From an uncultured Lachnospiraceae bacterium (lineage in GTDB: Bacteria > Bacillota > Clostridia > Lachnospirales > Lachnospiraceae), in NCBI GenBank assembly GCA_902803245.1, contig CADCPJ010000037.1, positions 1 through 12,717 of the forward strand: DNA of 12,717 nt, written 5' to 3'. A model generated the notes under the pieces. The model was not told the DNA's origin and searched no databases. It saw nothing but the letters and a program-made list of their open reading frames with translations. Shown here piece after piece: positions 2,180 to 12,717 of the stretch. The position numbers and the translations under genes are program-made. The first letter of the stretch is position 1; every line of letters begins with the position of its first letter.

Positions 2180-5100
2180 ATGCATTCGATCCGAACACAG
2201 ATCACAGTTATAACGATCGCTGCGATCCTTACGAGCATTCTGGCTGTCTTTGCGGCCAGCTTTATCAGCATCAAGGGCGAGACGGACAGGAACTCCGCGC
2301 AGATGCTGTACCTGATCGAGCAGGACACCCAGAAAAATCTCGAGAAATACTTCGACAGCATCGAGCAGTCCGTTGAAGTCGCTGCGAATCTCGCCATCGA
2401 AAGCCTGGACAGCGTGCTTCTCGTGGAATCCGGCTTGGTCACAGCGGACGCAGAGGCTTTCTCTCAGACGGAGGAACAGATTGCAGCCCTCGATGAGTAC
2501 CTGAAGAGCTACTGCAAATATGTCCAGAACTTTTTTGCCGGCGTCGCTGACTACACACAGGGCGTGACGGCCTATTACTACAGCATCGATCCGGGGGTCA
2601 GCACAGACGAGCGCGGTTTCTTTTACCAGAAGATCGGAAAGACGGGATTTATCGAGCAGACGCCCCTTGACGTCAAGCGCCTGCTCCCGGTGGATGTTCT
2701 CCATGACACGTGGTACGATGCGGCGGTAAAGAAAGGGCGCCCGGTGTGGCTCGGCCCCTATCCCTCTTCGCTTAAGCAGGGAGAGTGGATCTGCTCCTAT
2801 TTTGTTCCGGTCTATAAATCCGGAATGCTCATCGGAATCATGGGCATGGACATCCCGTGTTCGACTCTGATTGATCTCTTAAGGGACATCCGCGTATATG
2901 AGACGGGGTTCGTCTGCCTGATGAACGCGGAGGGCCAGGTGATTTATCATCCCGATCTCCCCATCGGCAGCAACCTGGATCAGCTGGGCTTAAGCGTCGA
3001 TGCGGACATTTTGAAGAATTTAAGCAGCGGAGATACGCTGATCCGCTATTCGCCTGCTGACGGTCAGGAGCGGCAGCTGTCCTTCTCCACACTCACCAAC
3101 GGGATGAAGCTCGGCGCAATCGCGCCCACCGCTGAGATCAACGCCCCCTGGACCCGGCTCGTCCGCGTCATCCTGCTCATCGCCGTGGCTGTCATCATTC
3201 TCTTTGCCCTGCTGATTTTCATCGTCATGCATGCCCTCACCTATCCCCTCAAAGAACTGACCGACGCATCCAAACAGCTCGCAAATGCGAATTACGACGT
3301 GGATCTTAACTATCAGGGGAACAATGAAATCGGTACCCTGACCCGCGCCTTCACGAAGATGAGGGATGAGATGAAGGGGTACATCAGCGACCTGAACCAT
3401 CAGATCTACCACGACAGGCTGACGGATCTCCCGAATATGAGGCACTTTTTCACTTTGGCGGAGGAGACGAGGAGCCGCATGCTCCTCGAAGGCAAGCAGC
3501 CGGTCATGCTCTATTTCAATATCGTCGGGATCAGGTATTACAACCGCCAGAAGGGCTTTGACAAGGGAGACCAGCTCCTTCGGGACTTCGCAGAAATCCT
3601 GGTGCGGCAGTTTGATAACCACCGCGTATGCCGGCTGAACAGCGACCGGTTCGGCGCTGTGACGGATGAAGGGAGCGCGGATGAGGAGCTCCGGGCGATC
3701 CTTAAGGAATGGGAGAGAAGCCCGGAGAGAAAGCGGATCCCCATCTGCATAGGAGCCTACCCCAACAGGCTCGATGAAGTGGATGTGAACGTCGCCTGCG
3801 ACCGCGCGAAGTTCGCCGGCGACCGGAATAAGAGTGAACACTCCTCAAGCATCACGTATTTCAATGAGGAGATGTTAAAAAACGGAGAGATCTATCTCCA
3901 TATCATCCAGAATCTCGATCAGGCCCTGAAAGAGGGCTGGGTCAAGGTGTACTACCAGCCGATCGTCCGCGCCGCGGACGGAAAGGTCTGCGACGAGGAG
4001 GCGCTCGCCCGCTGGATCGATCCCGTCTTCGGGTTCCTCTCTCCGGGAGATTTTATCCCGGCCCTGGAGGAGTCCAAGATGATCTACAAGCTCGACCTCT
4101 ATGTGCTCGAGCAGGTCCTTATGAAAATGAAGAAGACCGCCGAGGCCGGCCTCTACCTGGTGCCCCAGTCCATCAATCTCTCCCGCATGGACTTCGAGAG
4201 CTGCGACGTGATTGAGGAGATACGCCGCCGCGTCGACGATGCGGGAATCGACCGCTCCCTGATCACCGTTGAGATTACGGAGAGCGTGATCGGAGGCGAC
4301 TTCGACTTCATGAAGGAGCAGGTCAGAAAGTTCCGGGAGCTCGGCTTCCCCGTGTGGATGGACGACTTCGGGAGCGGTTACTCCTCGCTTGACGTGCTCC
4401 AGCAGATTCATTTTGACCTCATCAAATTCGATATGCGGTTTATGGAGCGCTTTGACGAAGGGGATGAGAGCAAGATCATCTTAACCGAGCTGATGAAGAT
4501 GGCCATCGGTCTCGGTATGGAGACCGTGTGCGAGGGCGTGGAGTATCCGGAGCAGGTCGAGTTCTTAAAAGAGATCGGCTGCACGCGCATTCAGGGATAT
4601 TATTACGGAAAGCCCATTCCGTTTGAAAGGATTCTTGCGGGGATAAGGGACGGAAGCATCCTCGAGTACGAAAATCCGGATGAGACGGAATACTACTCAT
4701 CCATCGGCCGCATCAATCTCTATGACATGTCCGCCGTGGCGAGTGAAGACGACGAGTCTTTGTCGCAGTATTTCAATACGCTGCCCATGAGCATCATGGA
4801 AGTCAGCGGGACAAAGGTGAAATATATCCGCTGCAACCGGTCCTACCGCGAATTCATGAGCCGCACTGTCGGTGTGCCTTACAGTACGGATGAAATAGAC
4901 ATCACTTCGATGGATTCTGTGATCGGACTGGCTTTCCTGAAGTCCGTAGTTCAGTGCGGCATCGACGGGAACCGCACGATCCTCGATGACAGAGTAAACG
5001 AGAATACCATAACCCATACACTCATACGCCGCGTGGCGGTCAATCCCGTCACCAAAACGGCAGCGGTCGCAGCGGCGGTGCTGGCGGTCATAAGGGAGGA

Positions 5101-6406
5101 TGAGCAGACCGGTACCAACTACAGCCAGATGGCCAGAGCCCTGTCGGGCGACTATGTGGATCTCTACTATGTGGACCTTGATTCGGAGAAATTCATTCAG
5201 TACACACCGGATGCCGAGCTCGAGGACCTGGTGATGGAGAGGCACGGGGAGAACTTCTTTGCGGCGAGCAAGCGCGACGCGCAGGTACACCTCGTGAAGG
5301 AGGACCAGGCGGCTTTCCTGAAAGCATTCACCAAAGAGAACGTGACGGAGACCCTGGAAAGAGAGGGACAGTTCAACCTGACTTACCGGCTCATTGACGG
5401 AGATGAGAATGTCTATGTCAGCATGAAGGCAGTGAGGATGCCCGGCGACCGCTCCCACATCCTCGTGGCCGTCTCCGACGTGAATGACCAGATGCGGCAG
5501 AAGGAGGAGATGTCCCGCCTTGAGGCGGAGAGAGCGGCTTACTCCCGCGTCAGCGCGCTGACTCAGGATTTTATCTGCATCTACACCATAGATCCGGACA
5601 CGGACCGCTATGTCGAGTACCGGGCCACCAGCGACTACGCCGGACTCGGAGTGCCCCGGGAGGGAGACGATTTCTGGGCACAGACTCTCCTCGAGAGCGC
5701 GAAGCACATATATCCCGAGGACCTGGAGAAATTCCGGGCGCTCGTGACCAGGGAAAACATCATGCGAAAAGCCGAGGAGGACGGGATCTTCACCTTCCGG
5801 TACCGCCTGGTGCTGAGCGGAAAACCGCACTATGTGAGCATAAGGGCCGCTCTCGTCGACGAAGAGGGAAGCCGGGTGCTTGTCATGGGCATCTATGACA
5901 TCGATACACAGATCCGGAACGAGCAGGAATACGAGCGGAAGCTGTCTTCCGCGAGGAGCAGGGCGAATCTCGATCTGCTCACGGGAGTGAAGAACAGGAC
6001 AGCATACGAGAACATGTCGGAGAGCCTCACACGGCAGATCGAGAGCGGAGAGAACGTCCGGTATGCGATCGTGATCTGCCGCGTGCACGGCGTGGGGTGG
6101 ATCAATGAGACTTTAGGGCGGGAAGCAGGGAATATGCTGATCCGCAGGTCCTGCGACACCATCTGTGAGACGTTCAAGCACAGCCCTGTCTTCCGTGTGG
6201 CCGGCGACAAGTTTGCAGTGATCGCGATGGGACACGACTACGAATGCATCGAGGATCTCATGGAGCAGATCAAGGCGTACAACCCGGGAAGCGAAGGGAA
6301 CGGAGAGCCCGGCATCACCTGCGGCATGGCAAAGTATGACGGCACGGGAAGCGTCGCCTCGGTATTCCACCGCGCGGAGGTACTGTGCAGCCCTGACGAA
6401 AACTGA
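2180..6406 (+). CDS. dCache-HAMP-GGDEF(degenerate)-EAL-PAS-GGDEF(degenerate) protein; probable c-di-GMP phosphodiesterase
   Basis: 1408 residues. Membrane helices at about 7-29 and 327-352 enclose an extracytoplasmic dCache-type sensor with the family's W-Y (178-179) and GMD (Asp224) landmarks. HAMP (350-403) and a first GGDEF (412-565) follow. That GGDEF is degenerate: the signature is NSDRF (487-491) and the first metal aspartate is Asn447. The EAL domain (about 575-825) has the full active-site set: EALAR from Glu607, Asn666, Glu701, DDFG from Asp728, Lys749, Glu785 and Gln805, so c-di-GMP hydrolysis to pGpG is expected. After it come a PAS-like region (about 862-975), two related PAS-like modules (from about 981 and 1121) and a second GGDEF (about 1260-1408), also broken: AGDKF at 1341-1345, Arg1301 for the metal aspartate, and a terminal region without the usual ADxxMYxxK. 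A second GGDEF after an EAL is unusual. Motifs are seen; phosphodiesterase activity is inferred. Confidence 0.92.
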   Translation: MHSIRTQITVITIAAILTSILAVFAASFISIKGETDRNSAQMLYLIEQDTQKNLEKYFDSIEQSVEVAANLAIESLDSVLLVESGLVTADAEAFSQTEEQIAALDEYLKSYCKYVQNFFAGVADYTQGVTAYYYSIDPGVSTDERGFFYQKIGKTGFIEQTPLDVKRLLPVDVLHDTWYDAAVKKGRPVWLGPYPSSLKQGEWICSYFVPVYKSGMLIGIMGMDIPCSTLIDLLRDIRVYETGFVCLMNAEGQVIYHPDLPIGSNLDQLGLSVDADILKNLSSGDTLIRYSPADGQERQLSFSTLTNGMKLGAIAPTAEINAPWTRLVRVILLIAVAVIILFALLIFIVMHALTYPLKELTDASKQLANANYDVDLNYQGNNEIGTLTRAFTKMRDEMKGYISDLNHQIYHDRLTDLPNMRHFFTLAEETRSRMLLEGKQPVMLYFNIVGIRYYNRQKGFDKGDQLLRDFAEILVRQFDNHRVCRLNSDRFGAVTDEGSADEELRAILKEWERSPERKRIPICIGAYPNRLDEVDVNVACDRAKFAGDRNKSEHSSSITYFNEEMLKNGEIYLHIIQNLDQALKEGWVKVYYQPIVRAADGKVCDEEALARWIDPVFGFLSPGDFIPALEESKMIYKLDLYVLEQVLMKMKKTAEAGLYLVPQSINLSRMDFESCDVIEEIRRRVDDAGIDRSLITVEITESVIGGDFDFMKEQVRKFRELGFPVWMDDFGSGYSSLDVLQQIHFDLIKFDMRFMERFDEGDESKIILTELMKMAIGLGMETVCEGVEYPEQVEFLKEIGCTRIQGYYYGKPIPFERILAGIRDGSILEYENPDETEYYSSIGRINLYDMSAVASEDDESLSQYFNTLPMSIMEVSGTKVKYIRCNRSYREFMSRTVGVPYSTDEIDITSMDSVIGLAFLKSVVQCGIDGNRTILDDRVNENTITHTLIRRVAVNPVTKTAAVAAAVLAVIREDEQTGTNYSQMARALSGDYVDLYYVDLDSEKFIQYTPDAELEDLVMERHGENFFAASKRDAQVHLVKEDQAAFLKAFTKENVTETLEREGQFNLTYRLIDGDENVYVSMKAVRMPGDRSHILVAVSDVNDQMRQKEEMSRLEAERAAYSRVSALTQDFICIYTIDPDTDRYVEYRATSDYAGLGVPREGDDFWAQTLLESAKHIYPEDLEKFRALVTRENIMRKAEEDGIFTFRYRLVLSGKPHYVSIRAALVDEEGSRVLVMGIYDIDTQIRNEQEYERKLSSARSRANLDLLTGVKNRTAYENMSESLTRQIESGENVRYAIVICRVHGVGWINETLGREAGNMLIRRSCDTICETFKHSPVFRVAGDKFAVIAMGHDYECIEDLMEQIKAYNPGSEGNGEPGITCGMAKYDGTGSVASVFHRAEVLCSPDEN

Positions 6407-6461: not shown

Positions 6462-8894
6462 ATGTATTATTCTGCAGTCAGCATACTTGCAGGTGCCATA
6501 TTGCTGATCGAGAATCAGGATATCCTGCGCGGAGAAGGAGGCGTTTTCGAAAAGCCCGTCTGGAACGCGTACAGGAAGTTCCTGATTGCCGTGATGGCTT
6601 ATTACATCACGGATATCCTGTGGGGTTTCCTTGAGATGAGGAATGAGCCGCAGCTCCTCTTTGTGAACACAACTGCGTACTTCATCGCGATGGGAATCGG
6701 CGTCCTCTCATTTGCGAAGTTTGCAGCGGCTTACCCGGAGGACAGTACTTCTTTCGGGCGCGTCCTCGAATATGTCGGCGGTGTCCTCGCGGGGTTTATC
6801 GTTGTCCTCTCCTTAGCGAACATCTTCGTGCCGGTTCTCTTTACTGTGGATGCAGACTGCGTCTACCGCGCACTTCCGCTCCGCTACTTCATACTCGTCT
6901 GCCAGATCCTTCTGTTTCTTCTCATATCGATCTTTGCGGCCGTCGGTCCCGGACAGAACAGTCCGAAGGAGAAGCGGTACCGCGCGCTCGCTCTCTCCGG
7001 GCTTGTCATGGCGGTGTTCCTGTTTCTTCAGATCTGGTTTACGAATTATCCGCTCTATGCCGCTGCGTATCTCTTCGGAACCTGTATCATTCACGCATTC
7101 GCGGCCAGCGAAGAGAAAGAAGAGTACCGCAAGGGGATGGAGGAGGCAGAAAAGGCCTGCAGTTTAAACCGCGCGACCGCTTCTCTCCTTGACAACATGC
7201 CCGCCATGGCATTCACGAAGGACGCAAAAAGCGGCGTATATCTCACCTGCAACCAGGCCTTTGCCGACTTTGCGCATAAAGAGAGTCCGTCCGACGTGAT
7301 CGGCTCCGCCGATTCCGAGATTTTTGACAGGGAGACGGCGGCTCATTTCGAGGCGGACGACCGGATTGCCCTCTCCATGGAGGAGCCTTTCATATTCTAT
7401 GAGGACGTGACGGATGCAGACGGAAACCGCCGCGACATGCAGACAACGAGGCTGAAGTACCGCAGCACAGACGGAGAGCTCTGTCTCCTCGGCATGAGCG
7501 AGGATGTGACGGATCTGGTCCGCATTCAGCGCGGGAATGCAATGACGAAGGAGACTTACGAGAAAGCGAAGAGCACGGGGATCATGTTTACGCACATAGC
7601 CCAGGCGCTGGCACGCGGATACACGGACCTCTTCTACGTCAATCTCGACTCCGAGGAGTTTGTGACCTATTGCTACGAAGAAAGCGGCGGGCTCGTCGAG
7701 ACGAGGCGCGGCTGGCACTTCTTCGAGATGTGCCGTCTGGAGATTGAAAAAAGAGTCCATCCCGACGACCGCACTGCCGTGAAGAATGCCCTCGACCGAA
7801 AGACGCTCATCAGGGCACTGGACAGAAATGAGACCTTTGTCATGACCCATCGCTTTCTGACGGACGACGGAGTGCGGTATTACACCATGAGGGCATCCCG
7901 CATGAAGGACGACGACCGGTTCATCGTCATAGGTCTCACGGATGTGGACGATCAGATGAGGCAGCGCCGGGCAGCGATGCGGGCCGCGGAGGAGCAGATC
8001 GCCTATACGCGCATCAGCGCGCTCACAGGAAACTATCTCGCTCTGTATGTCGTCGATCCGGCAACCGACCGCTACAGGGAATTCAGCGCGGACGAGAGCT
8101 TCAGCCGGCTGTCTAAGGTGCAGGCAGGCATGGACTTCTTTGAAATGATCCGCGAATCCGCGCGCACGCACAATTATCCGGACGATCTGAACCGCTTCCT
8201 TGCGGTCTTTACCAGGGAGAATGTCATGGCAGAGATCGGGCGCCGGGGCATTTTCGTGCTCAGCTACCGGCTCATGAAGGACGGGGTGCCCATCTACGTG
8301 CAGATCAAGGCAGCCCTGCTTGAAGAAAATGAAGGCAGACGACTCATCGTCGGCATCAATGACGTCGATGATGAGGTGAAGCAGGAAGAGGAATATATCC
8401 GGCATATCTCCGAGGCCAGGATGAGTGCCAGCATCGACGCCCTGACGGGAGTAAAGAACCGCCACGCCTATCTTGAAGCGGAGGACCGGCTGAATAACCA
8501 GATCGCGAACCGCCGCGGGACCGAATTTGGCGTCGTGCTCCTCGATGTGAATGACTTAAAGAGAATCAACGACACTTTGGGACACAGCGCCGGAGACCAG
8601 TACATACGGGACGCCTGCAAGATCATCTGCGACACGTTTAAGCGCAGCCCGGTTTTCCGCGTGGGAGGCGACGAATTTGCAGTCATCGCGCAGGGGAGCG
8701 ACTACGCATCTATCGAGGAACTCGTCGGGAGGATGAACGACCGGAATGCGAAGGCAATCCATGAGGGCGGAATCGTGATCGCATGCGGCATGGCGAAATA
8801 CGACGGCGATGAGAGCGTCGAATCCGTTTTCGAGCGGGCAGATCAGAGCATGTACAAAAACAAGAGCGAGCTGAAAACGAGAGGTTCTGCTTAA
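6462..8894 (+). CDS. 7TM-PAS-PAS-PAS-GGDEF membrane diguanylate cyclase
   Basis: 810 residues, predicted to make c-di-GMP from two GTP at the membrane. Residues 1-212 hold about seven hydrophobic helices with YYITDILWG at 47-55. I recall this N-terminal type from Lachnospiraceae signalling proteins; its ligand is unknown to me. A PAS domain (about 240-352) begins SLLDNMPAMAFTKDAKSG. Two PAS-like modules follow: the first around residue 387 (YTDLFYVNLDSEEF), the second around 524 (NYLALYVVDPATDRY). The GGDEF domain (about 655-808) has DALTGVKNR, metal aspartate Asp695 in LLDVNDLKRIND, intact GGDEF at 735-739 and ADQSMYKNK at the end, so it should be catalytic. The inhibitory RxxD site before GGDEF is absent. 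It starts 55 bases after the phosphodiesterase gene, whose C-terminal half is its degenerate sister, so the two form an opposing synthesis/degradation pair. The 240-520 region is also closely matched in the kinase encoded next. Confidence 0.93.
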   Translation: MYYSAVSILAGAILLIENQDILRGEGGVFEKPVWNAYRKFLIAVMAYYITDILWGFLEMRNEPQLLFVNTTAYFIAMGIGVLSFAKFAAAYPEDSTSFGRVLEYVGGVLAGFIVVLSLANIFVPVLFTVDADCVYRALPLRYFILVCQILLFLLISIFAAVGPGQNSPKEKRYRALALSGLVMAVFLFLQIWFTNYPLYAAAYLFGTCIIHAFAASEEKEEYRKGMEEAEKACSLNRATASLLDNMPAMAFTKDAKSGVYLTCNQAFADFAHKESPSDVIGSADSEIFDRETAAHFEADDRIALSMEEPFIFYEDVTDADGNRRDMQTTRLKYRSTDGELCLLGMSEDVTDLVRIQRGNAMTKETYEKAKSTGIMFTHIAQALARGYTDLFYVNLDSEEFVTYCYEESGGLVETRRGWHFFEMCRLEIEKRVHPDDRTAVKNALDRKTLIRALDRNETFVMTHRFLTDDGVRYYTMRASRMKDDDRFIVIGLTDVDDQMRQRRAAMRAAEEQIAYTRISALTGNYLALYVVDPATDRYREFSADESFSRLSKVQAGMDFFEMIRESARTHNYPDDLNRFLAVFTRENVMAEIGRRGIFVLSYRLMKDGVPIYVQIKAALLEENEGRRLIVGINDVDDEVKQEEEYIRHISEARMSASIDALTGVKNRHAYLEAEDRLNNQIANRRGTEFGVVLLDVNDLKRINDTLGHSAGDQYIRDACKIICDTFKRSPVFRVGGDEFAVIAQGSDYASIEELVGRMNDRNAKAIHEGGIVIACGMAKYDGDESVESVFERADQSMYKNKSELKTRGSA

Positions 8895-8984: not shown

Positions 8985-8991
8985 GGGAAGG
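8985..8991 (+). promoter_or_regulatory. Ribosome binding site deciding the start of the permease-kinase gene
   Basis: GGGAAGG lies ten bases before the ATG at 9002. The reading frame stays open upstream, back to the previous gene, with only a TTG at 8996 as a near alternative. A later in-frame ATG at 9089 would start inside the first membrane helix. The ATG at 9002 is therefore the best choice. Confidence 0.6.
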
Positions 8992-9001
8992 CACTTTGGA
9001 A

Positions 9002-12000
9002 ATGGAAGAAGCGAAATCTGCCTCCTCTTCAGCTTCAAAGGGAAGCGGGCAGGAAGGAGGACTTAAGGCTGGGTTCACACCTCTCGGCATGTGGGCGTTT
9101 TCTATCGGCACCAGTATCGGCTGGGGCTCATTTATCGTGACCTGCAACACGTATCTCCTGAAATCCGGACTCCTCGGCACGATCCTGGGAATGCTGGCCG
9201 GAATGGCCGTCATCCTCATCATCACCTGGAATCTCCAGTACATGATCCGGAAAAATCCGGGAGCAGGAGGAATCTATTCCTTTCAGAAGCAGGTGAGCGG
9301 AAAGGACTTCGGCTTCCTAAGCTTCTGGTTTGTGCTGATTACCTATCTGGCTGTCCTGTGGGCGAATCTCACGTCCCTTCCGCTCTTCGCCCGCTTTTTC
9401 CTGGGAAATGCGTTCCGGTTCGGGTTCCGCTACGAGGTGTTCGGCTATGAGGTGTGGTTCGGAGAGGCGCTTCTGTCGATCTGCGCGGCCGCACTGATCG
9501 GCTTTTTATGCCTTGCGGGATCCAGGGTGCCGAACCGCGTGATGATCATCGCCGCGCTTGTTTTCACCGTCGGATTCGCAGTGTGCGCCGCGGCGGCGGT
9601 CATAAAGCATGAGAGCGGATTTCACTATGATCCGCTCTACACGGAAGGGGCAGGGGCATTTTCCCAGATCGTCCGCATCGCAGTCATATCTCCCTGGGCT
9701 TTCATCGGATTCGAGAATATCTCTCATTTTTCCGGGGAATACGATTTTCCGCTGAAGAAGGTGCGCCGGATCCTGATCCTTTCGGTGGTGATCACCACGC
9801 TTCTCTATATCCTTGTGTCACTGCTTTCGGTCTCGGCCTATCCGCCGGAATACGACAGCTGGATCTCCTATATACGGGACATGGGGAACCTGGACGGGAT
9901 CAGGGCCGTGCCCGCTTTCTATGCAGCCGGCCACTATCTCGGCGAGACCGGTGTCAAAATCCTGATGCTCTCGCTCTTTGCAGTCATCCTGACCAGCCTT
10001 ATAGGGAACACGATGGCGCTCAGCCGCCTGCTGTATGCGGCCGGCAGAGAAGGGGAGGCTCCCGCGGCGCTCACACGGCTTAACAGGCAGGGTGCGCCGC
10101 ATGTGGCTGTCCTTGTGATTGCCGTCATATCGGTGCTCGTTCCGTTTCTCGGGAGAACGGCGATCGGCTGGATCGTGGACGTCACCACTTTGGGAGCGAC
10201 GATCATCTACGGACTGATCTCCTTTGCCGTCTACCGCCATGCAAAAAAGTCCAAAAACCGCTCGGAGACCGTGACGGGCGCCATCGGAATGGCGCTCATG
10301 CTGCTCTTTTTGCTGCTCCTTCTCATTCCCGGCCTTCTTCCGTTCCACGCGATGGAGACGGAGTCCTACGCCCTCTTTATCTTCTGGTCCGTTCTCGGCC
10401 TCATCTATTACCGCCTTCTTGTCCGCCTGGATAAGAAGAGGGAGCACGGGCAGAGCGCCATCGTGTGGGTCACACTCATGATGCTTGTGGTGTTTGCGTC
10501 GATCATGTGGGTGTCAAGGGCCACCGAGTCGGCTGCGGGCAGAGCCGTGGAGAGAATCTACGAGTATCACCAGAGCCACCCGGAGCGCGACGAATACAGC
10601 ATGGACTCCAGGATGCGGGTGCAGTTCCTTGAGGAGCAGGCAGATGCCATCAGCAGTGCCAACACCTTGTATTCCGTCGTCTCGACAGGTCTCTTCCTTC
10701 TCTTCATCACTCTTCTTATTAACAACTACCGTGATACGCAGAAGCTGGGAAAGAAACTCTCTGAAGCCGAGAGGGAGGCGGATTCGGCGCGCAGAATTGC
10801 CGAGCTCACAAACTCCATCAGCTCCCTCCTCGACAACATGCCCGGCATGACCTTCACAAAGGATGCGGAGACAGGGGTGTATCTCGCCTGCAACCAGGCT
10901 TTTGCGGACTACGCCAGGAAGGAGAAGCCCGCGGGAGTCATCGGCCTCACCGACGTCCAGATCTTCGATAAGCGCACGGCGGCCCATTTTATCGAGGACG
11001 ACAGGATCGCCCTCTCTATGGACACCCCTTACATATTCTACGAGGACGTCCCGGATGCCGCCGGTGAACACCGCCAGCTGCAGACGACGAAATTGAAATT
11101 CATCGATTCCACGGGCCGGGTCTGCCTGCTCGGCATGTGCCAGGATGTGACGGATATGGTGCGCATCCAGCACGAGCACGCCATGACGAAGGAGGCATAT
11201 GAAAATGCCGTCTCCGCAGGCATTATGTACAGCCACATTGCTCAGACCCTGTCCCGCGAATACACGGACATATTCTATGTCAATCTCGACTCCGAGGAGT
11301 TCGTTGAATATCAGCGGAAAGAGGGGGGCGGGGCGCTCGTCGAGACGAGACGCGGCTGGCATTTCTTCAGTGACTGCATAGCGGAGTTTTCCGGAGACGT
11401 CACAGACGATGACCGGGAAGCATTCCTGGAGGCGATGAACCGTCTGACGCTCATGAAGGCTCTGGAACGCAGCGGCACCTTCATGATGACGTTCAGGGAG
11501 TCGAGGAGAGGGGAGCCGGTCTACGTCACCATGAAGGTCTCCCGCATGGAGGACGATGAACATTTCCTCGTCGTCGCGATCAAAAACGTCGACGCTGAGA
11601 TGCGCGATGCGATCTCGAAGAGCGAGGCTCTCTCCCAGGCGCTGATCTCGGCGGAAGAGGCCAGCAAGGCCAAGACGTCCTTCCTGTCCAGCATGAGTCA
11701 CGAGATCCGCACGCCGATGAACGCCATCATCGGCCTCGATACCCTCGCGCTGCGCGATGAGACGCTGAAAGAGGAGACGAGGGACTATCTGGAGAAGATC
11801 GACGGGAGCGCCAGGCACCTCCTTGGCCTCATCAACGACATCCTGGACATGAACCGAATCGAGTCCGGACGGATGGTGCTGCGGCGGGAAGTCTTCTTAC
11901 TTGGAGCAGTTCTGGACCAGATCAACGCGATGGTCATGACCCAGTGCCGGGAGAAGGGCCTCACCTACGAGTGCCGCATGGTGAGCGGCATGAACACCCC

Positions 12001-12717
12001 TTACGTCGGCGACGACATGAAGCTGAAGGAGGTGCTTCTCAACATCCTGTCCAATGCCGTCAAGTTCACCGATCCCCCGGGCAGCATCACGACTACCGTG
12101 GAGCGGACCGTACAGTTTGAGAACCAGTCCACGCTCCGCTTTGTGATCCGGGACACCGGAATCGGGATTGACAGTGAGTATCTCACCAGGATATTCGACC
12201 CCTTCTCCCAGGAGGACAGCTCGCGCACGACCAGGTACGGCAGCACGGGACTCGGGATGGCCATCACGAAGCGGATCGTGGAGATGATGAACGGCTCGAT
12301 CAGCATCGAGTCAAAGAAGGGCGCCGGCACCGAGATTGCAGTGACGATTACACTCAGAAATGCGGACAGAAGCGGTGAGGACTGGGAGAGTGCGATCAAT
12401 CCCCGCGCCTTCCGCGTGCTCGTGGTCGACGACGATCCGATCGAAGCGGAGCACGCGAGGACCGTGCTGGACGAGGTCGGCATCCATGCCGACTCCTGCA
12501 CAAGCGGCGAGGAGGCTCTCAGCAAGATGGAGGTGCAGCATTTAAAACAGAAGCCGTATAACCTCGTGCTCATGGACTGGAGCATGCCGGGAATGACGGG
12601 ACTGGAGGCGTCCGCGGAGATCCGGAGATTATATGACAGCGAGACGACCGTTGTGGTTCTTACGGCTTACAACTGGGACGACATCGAGGAGGAGGCCCAA
12701 AAGATCGGCGTGGACAA
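9002..12717 (+). CDS. APC-type amino acid permease domain fused to a PAS hybrid sensor histidine kinase (3' truncated by window)
   Basis: At least 1238 residues; the frame is open to the window end. A polar Ser/Ala/Gly-rich tail (1-29) precedes a 12-helix APC-superfamily domain (about 30-480). Helix 1 has the unwound substrate-site motif GTSIGWGSF (36-44). Helix 6 has SPWAFIGFE (230-238). SRLLYAAGREGEAP (341-354) is the family's conserved stretch after helix 8. Two extra helices (about 486-505 and 557-575) flank a roughly 50-residue outside loop. Then come a PAS domain (605-720), a PAS-like module around 754, HisKA with SMSHEIRTP (phospho-acceptor His900), and a HATPase with Asn1018, DTGIGI from Asp1051 and GSTGLG (1080-1085). 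A receiver domain follows, with acidic Asp1143-1145, phospho-acceptor Asp1192 and Thr1221; the window ends before its conserved lysine. It is predicted to autophosphorylate in response to substrate binding or transport and pass phosphate to its own receiver. The output partner is not in view. Whether the permease part still transports is unknown. Confidence 0.93.
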   Translation, partial: MEEAKSASSSASKGSGQEGGLKAGFTPLGMWAFSIGTSIGWGSFIVTCNTYLLKSGLLGTILGMLAGMAVILIITWNLQYMIRKNPGAGGIYSFQKQVSGKDFGFLSFWFVLITYLAVLWANLTSLPLFARFFLGNAFRFGFRYEVFGYEVWFGEALLSICAAALIGFLCLAGSRVPNRVMIIAALVFTVGFAVCAAAAVIKHESGFHYDPLYTEGAGAFSQIVRIAVISPWAFIGFENISHFSGEYDFPLKKVRRILILSVVITTLLYILVSLLSVSAYPPEYDSWISYIRDMGNLDGIRAVPAFYAAGHYLGETGVKILMLSLFAVILTSLIGNTMALSRLLYAAGREGEAPAALTRLNRQGAPHVAVLVIAVISVLVPFLGRTAIGWIVDVTTLGATIIYGLISFAVYRHAKKSKNRSETVTGAIGMALMLLFLLLLLIPGLLPFHAMETESYALFIFWSVLGLIYYRLLVRLDKKREHGQSAIVWVTLMMLVVFASIMWVSRATESAAGRAVERIYEYHQSHPERDEYSMDSRMRVQFLEEQADAISSANTLYSVVSTGLFLLFITLLINNYRDTQKLGKKLSEAEREADSARRIAELTNSISSLLDNMPGMTFTKDAETGVYLACNQAFADYARKEKPAGVIGLTDVQIFDKRTAAHFIEDDRIALSMDTPYIFYEDVPDAAGEHRQLQTTKLKFIDSTGRVCLLGMCQDVTDMVRIQHEHAMTKEAYENAVSAGIMYSHIAQTLSREYTDIFYVNLDSEEFVEYQRKEGGGALVETRRGWHFFSDCIAEFSGDVTDDDREAFLEAMNRLTLMKALERSGTFMMTFRESRRGEPVYVTMKVSRMEDDEHFLVVAIKNVDAEMRDAISKSEALSQALISAEEASKAKTSFLSSMSHEIRTPMNAIIGLDTLALRDETLKEETRDYLEKIDGSARHLLGLINDILDMNRIESGRMVLRREVFLLGAVLDQINAMVMTQCREKGLTYECRMVSGMNTPYVGDDMKLKEVLLNILSNAVKFTDPPGSITTTVERTVQFENQSTLRFVIRDTGIGIDSEYLTRIFDPFSQEDSSRTTRYGSTGLGMAITKRIVEMMNGSISIESKKGAGTEIAVTITLRNADRSGEDWESAINPRAFRVLVVDDDPIEAEHARTVLDEVGIHADSCTSGEEALSKMEVQHLKQKPYNLVLMDWSMPGMTGLEASAEIRRLYDSETTVVVLTAYNWDDIEEEAQKIGVD

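Follow-up and report, generated by a model that had tools for sequence, protein, structure and literature searches.

We analyzed a window of 12,717 nucleotides, the whole of contig C37 (CADCPJ010000037.1, forward strand) from an uncultured Lachnospiraceae bacterium whose draft genome (GCA_902803245.1) is fragmentary (2.23 Mb, 417 contigs, 86% complete). Its final gene encodes an APC-family amino acid permease fused to a hybrid histidine kinase (Table 1). No stop codon lies between the ATG at 9002 and 12715, the contig's final whole codon; an alternative in-frame TTG is present at 8996. Both permease profiles scored above their cut-offs (AA_permease_2, 104 vs. 27 bits; AA_permease, 95.8 vs. 24.6 bits). 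In the signaling half, SHEIRTP at residue 899 identifies His 900 as the phospho-acceptor, and the ATPase domain contains NILSNAVKF at 1014, DTGIG at 1051, FSQED at 1068 and GLGMAI at 1083, which we take to be the N, G1, F and G2 boxes. A HisKA domain with its histidine, an HATPase_c domain with its boxes and a receiver with its aspartate, incomplete at the contig end, make the protein a hybrid histidine kinase. The initial annotation, a reading of the letters alone, had described a single frame running from an APC transporter into PAS, HisKA, HATPase and receiver domains. That frame was borne out, with Pfam matches above cut-off, and all the named domains are present, but the receiver is truncated, and a second PAS-like domain and two extra membrane helices had been omitted. 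Pfam did not match this second PAS-like domain in the window protein, and its boundaries were set from repeats in relatives.

Table 1 Features of the permease-kinase gene and its upstream partner
Feature	Residues	Position	Strand	Basis
Partner gene: membrane N-terminus, PAS_4, two PAS-like domains, GGDEF		6462..8894	+	Pfam, repeats
Possible ribosome binding site GGGAAGG		8985..8991	+	Inferred by reading the sequence
APC permease-hybrid histidine kinase gene		9002..12715	+	1238 codons; open at contig end
APC/LeuT-fold permease domain, 12 transmembrane helices	22-480	9065..10441	+	Pfam (AA_permease_2, residues 30-442, 1.1e-29, above curated cut-off), AlphaFold2 model, PDB matches
Helix 1 break GTSIGWGSF	36-44	9107..9133	+	Conservation; helix broken in model
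Helix 6 break SPWAFIGFE	230-238	9689..9715	+	Conservation; helix broken in model
Helix 8 motif TSLIGNTMALSR	331-342	9992..10027	+	Alignment; N336 opposite AdiC W293
Helix 10 motif FLGRTAIGWIVDVTTLGA	382-399	10145..10198	+	Conservation
Coupling hairpin (CPL)	485-604	10454..10813	+	AlphaFold2 model, hydrophobic segments
PAS_4 domain	610-719	10829..11158	+	Pfam (2.3e-9, above curated cut-off)
Second PAS-like domain	about 745-872	11234..11617	+	Repeat common to relatives
HisKA	890-956	11669..11869	+	Pfam (3.8e-18, above curated cut-off); SHEIRTP at 899
HATPase_c	1003-1118	12008..12355	+	Pfam (1.3e-27, above curated cut-off); N, G1, F, G2 boxes
Receiver domain, incomplete	1139-1237	12416..12712	+	Pfam (Response_reg, 3.9e-17, above curated cut-off; profile 1-93 of 111); LMDWSMPG at 1190, Asp 1192

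Many full-length relatives are about 1400-1410 amino acids long. Because the start of contig C255 is 75% identical to residues 1241-1404 of the full-length relative P0002, the missing tail (the rest of the first receiver and a second one) probably lies there. Another hybrid kinase follows this probable tail (G000:C255:939-2969), with one TAG within the match.

Structure prediction and comparison with AdiC, both suggested in the initial annotation, gave a fold of the LeuT type in which helices 1 and 6 are broken (AlphaFold2 model from a 65-row alignment; predicted local distance difference test (pLDDT) 90.7, predicted template modeling score (pTM) 0.89; PDB matches). Conservation is highest in helices 1, 3, 6, 8 and 10. 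W232, E238 and T395 were identical across all 65 aligned rows, and G40, W41 and G42 were invariant in 77/77 rows (rows under 80% identity). Against AdiC, helix 6 retains W202, I205 and E208 as W232, I235 and E238, whereas S26 is changed to W41 and W293 to N336. The claim that the substrate-site residues are retained thus stood for helix 6 and failed at the latter two positions. Likewise, the motifs of helices 1, 6 and 8 had been called intact: the breaks were modeled and helix 6 is kept, but helix 1 reads G-W-G where AdiC has G-S-G, and helix 8 carries N336.

Near-duplicate or shorter locus copies were removed before the motif, hairpin, tree and neighbor counts. A motif search over 119 fused frames found G-W-G in 110, G-F-G in one and neither in eight; L092, one of these eight, has G-W-G further in, and the other seven do not have helix 1 in frame. 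The residue is thus tryptophan in 111 of the 112 fused frames in which helix 1 is present, and phenylalanine in L213 (G736), the sole fused relative with G-F-G. The side chain of S26 is described as dispensable in AdiC, with backbone amides binding the carboxylate (PMC5877779, available portion), and G-W-G is also present in solo permease relatives. W41 is therefore not proof of lost binding, and we rejected it as the mark of a dead site.

Between the permease and its output lies an element that we named the coupling hairpin (CPL), which the initial annotation had overlooked, as it had the further kinds of output and the shared clade described below. It consists of transmembrane helix 13 (TM13), an extracytoplasmic helical hairpin, TM14 and a cytoplasmic coil, with putative sidedness, and was modeled as two long helices (485-525 and 533-604). 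Exactly two hydrophobic segments, with centers 41-78 residues apart, separated the APC domain from the first recognized downstream domain in 120/120 fused frames measured, some of which are ended by the contig end after the PAS domain; L114, L134, L197, L214 and L215 stood outside this set. As a control, 26/26 closed solo permease frames had no hydrophobic segment after the APC domain. Among the other frames without a recognized output, L055 (two segments) and L057 (one) are distant APC proteins with an early-stopping match, and we take these segments to be their own last helices. Six related, more distant G-W-G permeases (L065, L066 and L205-L208) carry a C-terminal iron-containing alcohol dehydrogenase, matched above the Pfam cut-off in L065 and read from sequence or length in the others; one has no segment after the APC domain, four have one and L208 has two. 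No Pfam family exceeded its cut-off in residues 479-590. A word-limited and length-limited search with residues 479-598 returned 10 proteins from 383 candidates, nine with an APC domain plus P0242, which we rejected as a hairpin without APC since it starts with the last APC helices and is a fragment. We make no claim of a new fold. Paralogue L005 lacks a PAS domain ahead of the kinase; its model shows, with moderate confidence there, one continuous helix (529-620) that contains TM14 and extends into the phospho-acceptor helix. Such continuity is the likely transmission line.

A protein database searched with residues 1-600 gave, from 8000 candidates scored, 1478 proteins with E≤0.001. All of the best 120 of these 1478 had the APC domain and hairpin, and 118 had an output behind it (70 kinase, 47 GGDEF, 1 GGDEF+EAL). 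The other two are P0085, a record named 'partial', and P0084, whose choline-binding, cell-wall-repeat tail we rejected as a real architecture; we read it as a probable chimera because its PAS sequence gives way abruptly to repeats and its cluster consists of one sequence. NCBI names, where shown, were 'amino acid permease' only. A GTDB species-genome scan yielded 236 pattern matches, of which 206 were confirmed and 80 kept. The titles of the 80 kept were mostly Clostridia or its families, many from ruminants; others were Chloroflexi or Anaerolineaceae, Atopobiaceae, Coriobacteriaceae, Solobacterium and Sutterella. Most source records are titled as metagenome-assembled genomes (MAGs) or uncultured, and MAG titles can be wrong. 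One strain-named record without a MAG label, NK3B98 (L102), holds an intact APC-PAS-GGDEF gene of 1175 amino acids. The reading frame is interrupted in certain relatives, by a stop that separates hairpin from GGDEF in L114 and by an early end or change of frame in L051, L143 and L155. An APC-hairpin profile found fused genes in at least 11/392 genomes of the order, at least 7/391 of the class and at least 4/398 of the phylum; these draws overlap and each includes the window's own genome, long frames of the order draw were inspected in part (G176 and G419 left out), and the class and phylum draws were cut at 1e-100. In the window's draft genome, both APC profiles (PF13520 and PF00324) matched only three places, all fused, and neither found a solo permease. 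In four pairs, each domain compared gave a ratio of nonsynonymous to synonymous substitution rates of 0.05-0.50; purifying selection acts on the permease and signaling sides alike. The fusion is real and recurrent.

The outputs behind the APC-hairpin differ among relatives. With HK for histidine kinase and REC for receiver, they comprise HK-REC(-REC), PAS-PAS-HK-REC-REC, GGDEF, PAS-GGDEF, EAL and GGDEF-REC-GGDEF-EAL, as well as an HD-type output (HD_5/HD), which we read as HD-GYP, in L197, L214 and L215. Many have no PAS domain before the output, and the hairpin runs straight into GGDEF or HisKA. Catalytic motifs are largely kept: the GGDEF motif in 63/67 GGDEF matches, and an H-box with its histidine in 46/47 kinase matches. 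Because the same APC-hairpin precedes enzymes that make or degrade cyclic di-GMP (c-di-GMP), it is an exchangeable input module. Separately, L222, L223, L225 and L226 (G1148 and G827) are tandem APC-kinase genes whose kinase halves look degenerate; the H-box of L222 and L223 reads HDIG.

We built a quick IQ-TREE phylogeny (LG+G4) of 133 APC domains, in which 45/130 inner branches had support under 80. One clade held 108/133 rows (Shimodaira-Hasegawa-like approximate likelihood-ratio test, 85), or 109 with support 99 when the solo permease L053 joins; solo G-W-G permeases branch outside the 108-row clade. The sole row labeled output-less within it is L114, with its in-frame stop after the hairpin; contig ends truncate a few more. 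Output labels changed at least 30 times on the tree for all nine labels, or 24 times without unassigned rows, with many forks weak; counted on starred branches alone, the forced changes are only 4 (kinase), 5 (GGDEF), 4 (PAS-GGDEF) and 6 (GGDEF-EAL). Since the earliest branches of the clade are kinases, the kinase fusion would have come first. We lean slightly toward a broader account, in which the APC fold became a dedicated receptor module (APC plus hairpin) once, in a gut-Clostridia ancestor, and was later placed before hybrid kinases and each of the three c-di-GMP enzyme classes (GGDEF, EAL and HD-type). Its spread would reach outside Clostridia, to judge by records titled Anaerolineaceae/Chloroflexi and Atopobiaceae, and it would be the only use of this carrier family found in at least this draft, so that a complete transporter gave rise to a broad receptor superfamily.

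The fusion, the hairpin, the catalytic motifs, the conserved pocket and the single clade with different outputs, each visible in sequence or model, are consistent with a protein that likely works as a transceptor. We consider it probable that the window gene encodes a transporter-fold receptor in which ligand-driven movement of the APC domain reaches the kinase through the hairpin. The APC domain would bind a small nutrient, probably amino-acid-like, between broken helices 1 and 6, and the opening and closing of the fold would displace the added helices 13 and 14. Helix 14 would continue as the coil into the signaling half, with its two PAS-type domains and then the dimerization helix bearing His 900, so that its shift sets the level of autophosphorylation. 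The first receiver would then accept the phosphate on Asp 1192 and would probably hand it on to the second. In this scheme we infer the ligand class, the direction of the signal, the mechanics of the dimer and whether solute moves.

Several points weigh against the receptor scheme. Ligand, binding, transport and kinase activity are all putative, and W41 could crowd the classical substrate site. The hairpin is the least conserved part outside TM13 (TM13, 0.62; extracytoplasmic part, 0.36; TM14, 0.45; coil, 0.28), and confidence in the L005 model is limited around the junction (residues 581-660, block pLDDT 57-77; model pTM 0.54). Kinase matches are weak (17-60 bits) in L222, L223, L225 and L226. 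The clade has moderate support in a quick tree with long-branch warnings. Furthermore, as reported in the accessible part of one study, the kinase of CbrA was not controlled by its fused transporter, histidine changing neither autokinase activity nor phosphotransfer (PMC7096432). Transport and kinase are separable there, and the window protein could similarly be a working amino acid transporter that merely shares a chain with a kinase controlled mainly from inside, through PAS, as proposed for CbrA. Its conserved pocket and helix breaks would fit, as would the two PAS-type domains between membrane part and kinase. This co-location is nonetheless unlikely, as many relatives connect the hairpin directly to GGDEF or HisKA (also in the L005 model), the two hairpin helices are retained with all outputs measured, and the draft yielded no solo permease with the two profiles.

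Some membrane input domains sense no solute, and with tryptophan at the S26 position and asparagine at that of W293, the APC part might be a membrane anchor or a sensor of stress or membrane state with its solute site unused. The conservation of helices 1, 3, 6, 8 and 10 and the identity of W232, E238 and T395 speak against this, and Trp 41, being common to solo permeases, is no mark of decay; we regard the idea as improbable. Reverse regulation, in which the signaling enzymes control the permease, finds a parallel in KimA, a permease of the same fold with a structure entry titled as cyclic di-AMP-bound, but we hold it to be very improbable: the outputs are catalytic and their chemistry is unrelated, which fits one input with many outputs. 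As for an assembly or frameshift artefact joining two genes, the prevalence of MAG or uncultured sources, the broken frames and the chimeric P0084 might seem to favor it; it is scarcely credible given the purifying selection on both sides and the intact fusion in NK3B98, and it is refuted in practice by recurrence among the best-matching proteins.

The receptor scheme has counterparts among known systems. The SLC5/STAC kinases CbrA, CrbS and RpuS also carry kinase parts behind an N-terminal solute carrier, and CbrA is described, in the portions available, as having a LeuT-type fold that binds and transports histidine (PMC13022988, PMC7096432, PMC9100948). They differ in combining an SLC5 carrier with STAC, whereas here an APC carrier is followed by a two-helix membrane hairpin and relatives also have GGDEF, EAL and HD-type outputs. 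The only Pfam matches in the membrane part were AA_permease families; for STAC, residues 479-590 had no match above cut-off and the model shows a membrane hairpin, without a direct STAC profile comparison. The window protein is not a member of this group. Ks-Amt5 likewise reuses a transporter domain as the sensor of a ligand-coupled kinase (PMC5764959, PMC8534201, in part), but that domain is an ammonium transporter, not APC, and Amt is absent from the window protein's Pfam matches. Sensor kinases with an energy-coupling factor (ECF) S-component fold, or 5TMR, reuse a transporter fold as receptor (PMC11109136, in part), and their fold is not the 12-helix APC carrier. Solo APC permeases of the AdiC, CAT and ApcT types share the fold, the breaks of helices 1 and 6 and the W202/I205/E208 positions, but have no hairpin or output, and AdiC has G-S-G in place of G-W-G. 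In the E. coli LysP-CadC pair, a lysine permease informs a signaling protein through a lysine-dependent conformational change (PMC5936718, in part), with two proteins in place of one chain.

The remark that an APC-input hybrid kinase is little or not described held within the literature searched, which featured SLC5/STAC kinases, Ks-Amt5 and S-component receptors, contained no description of APC fusions to kinase or GGDEF and left most subscription journals outside its coverage. As far as these searches reach, the APC-hairpin-output architecture is undescribed. To our knowledge, APC is the third carrier type, after SLC5 and Amt, found fused whole to kinases, and it also occurs with exchangeable c-di-GMP outputs. 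In the text available, a 2024 paper on S-components claims the first prokaryotic transceptors under a definition that omits CbrA (PMC11109136), and the word 'permease' is absent from the accessible part of a review of c-di-GMP sensing (PMC8846402). If the receptor scheme is true, APC proteins, known chiefly for transport and with LAT and CAT as human members, join the few carriers that have been co-opted as receptors in bacteria, and the relatives provide a naturally occurring set of different outputs attached to one input. How alternating-access movement becomes a signal could then be tested with kinase, cyclase and phosphodiesterase versions, and the system points to likely nutrient sensing in rumen and gut bacteria.

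Finally, we examined neighboring genes for clues to the ligand. Of 24 APC-PAS-kinase loci, 21 extended far enough upstream to be assessed and three did not; 17/21 have a PAS-PAS-PAS-GGDEF gene directly upstream on the same strand, of the cytoplasmic type seen in the window's partner gene. Of eight such partners scanned, four carry two SBP_bac_3 stretches each; a ninth protein scanned, from L089, is a downstream kinase. According to the available part of a review, SBP_bac_3 serves L-arginine sensing in RmcA (PMC8846402), and its presence in the partners may indirectly support amino-acid-type sensing. In the window, a lone peptide-type binding lipoprotein (SBP_bac_5, 420-2078) directly precedes a dCache-HAMP-GGDEF-EAL protein (2180-6406), and no ABC (ATP-binding cassette) permease gene was seen in the window; the lipoprotein is possibly a ligand-delivery protein for signaling. 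The iron-containing alcohol dehydrogenases were rejected as a substrate clue, because none of the 13 listed NCBIfam models reached its cut-off (SarD 207/700, ErcA 240/550). Taurine was rejected as a general ligand and is a weak lead at most, with a G-W-G permease in only one (G889) of 11 xsc loci inspected, the listed row G947:C32 being left out. In G889, two G-W-G solo permeases lie between a sulfoacetaldehyde acetyltransferase and a protein matching PRK06062 (both above cut-off), which we read as a class III aminotransferase. Solo G-W-G permeases L227 and L230 stand beside lysine 5,6-aminomutase genes and a sulfoacetaldehyde acetyltransferase gene. The PAS-PAS-HK-REC-REC half of L038 (G029:C31) resembles the window protein's but follows a different membrane input, and the upstream neighbor of L038, read from sequence, looks like a PAS-GGDEF protein with a periplasmic binding domain.

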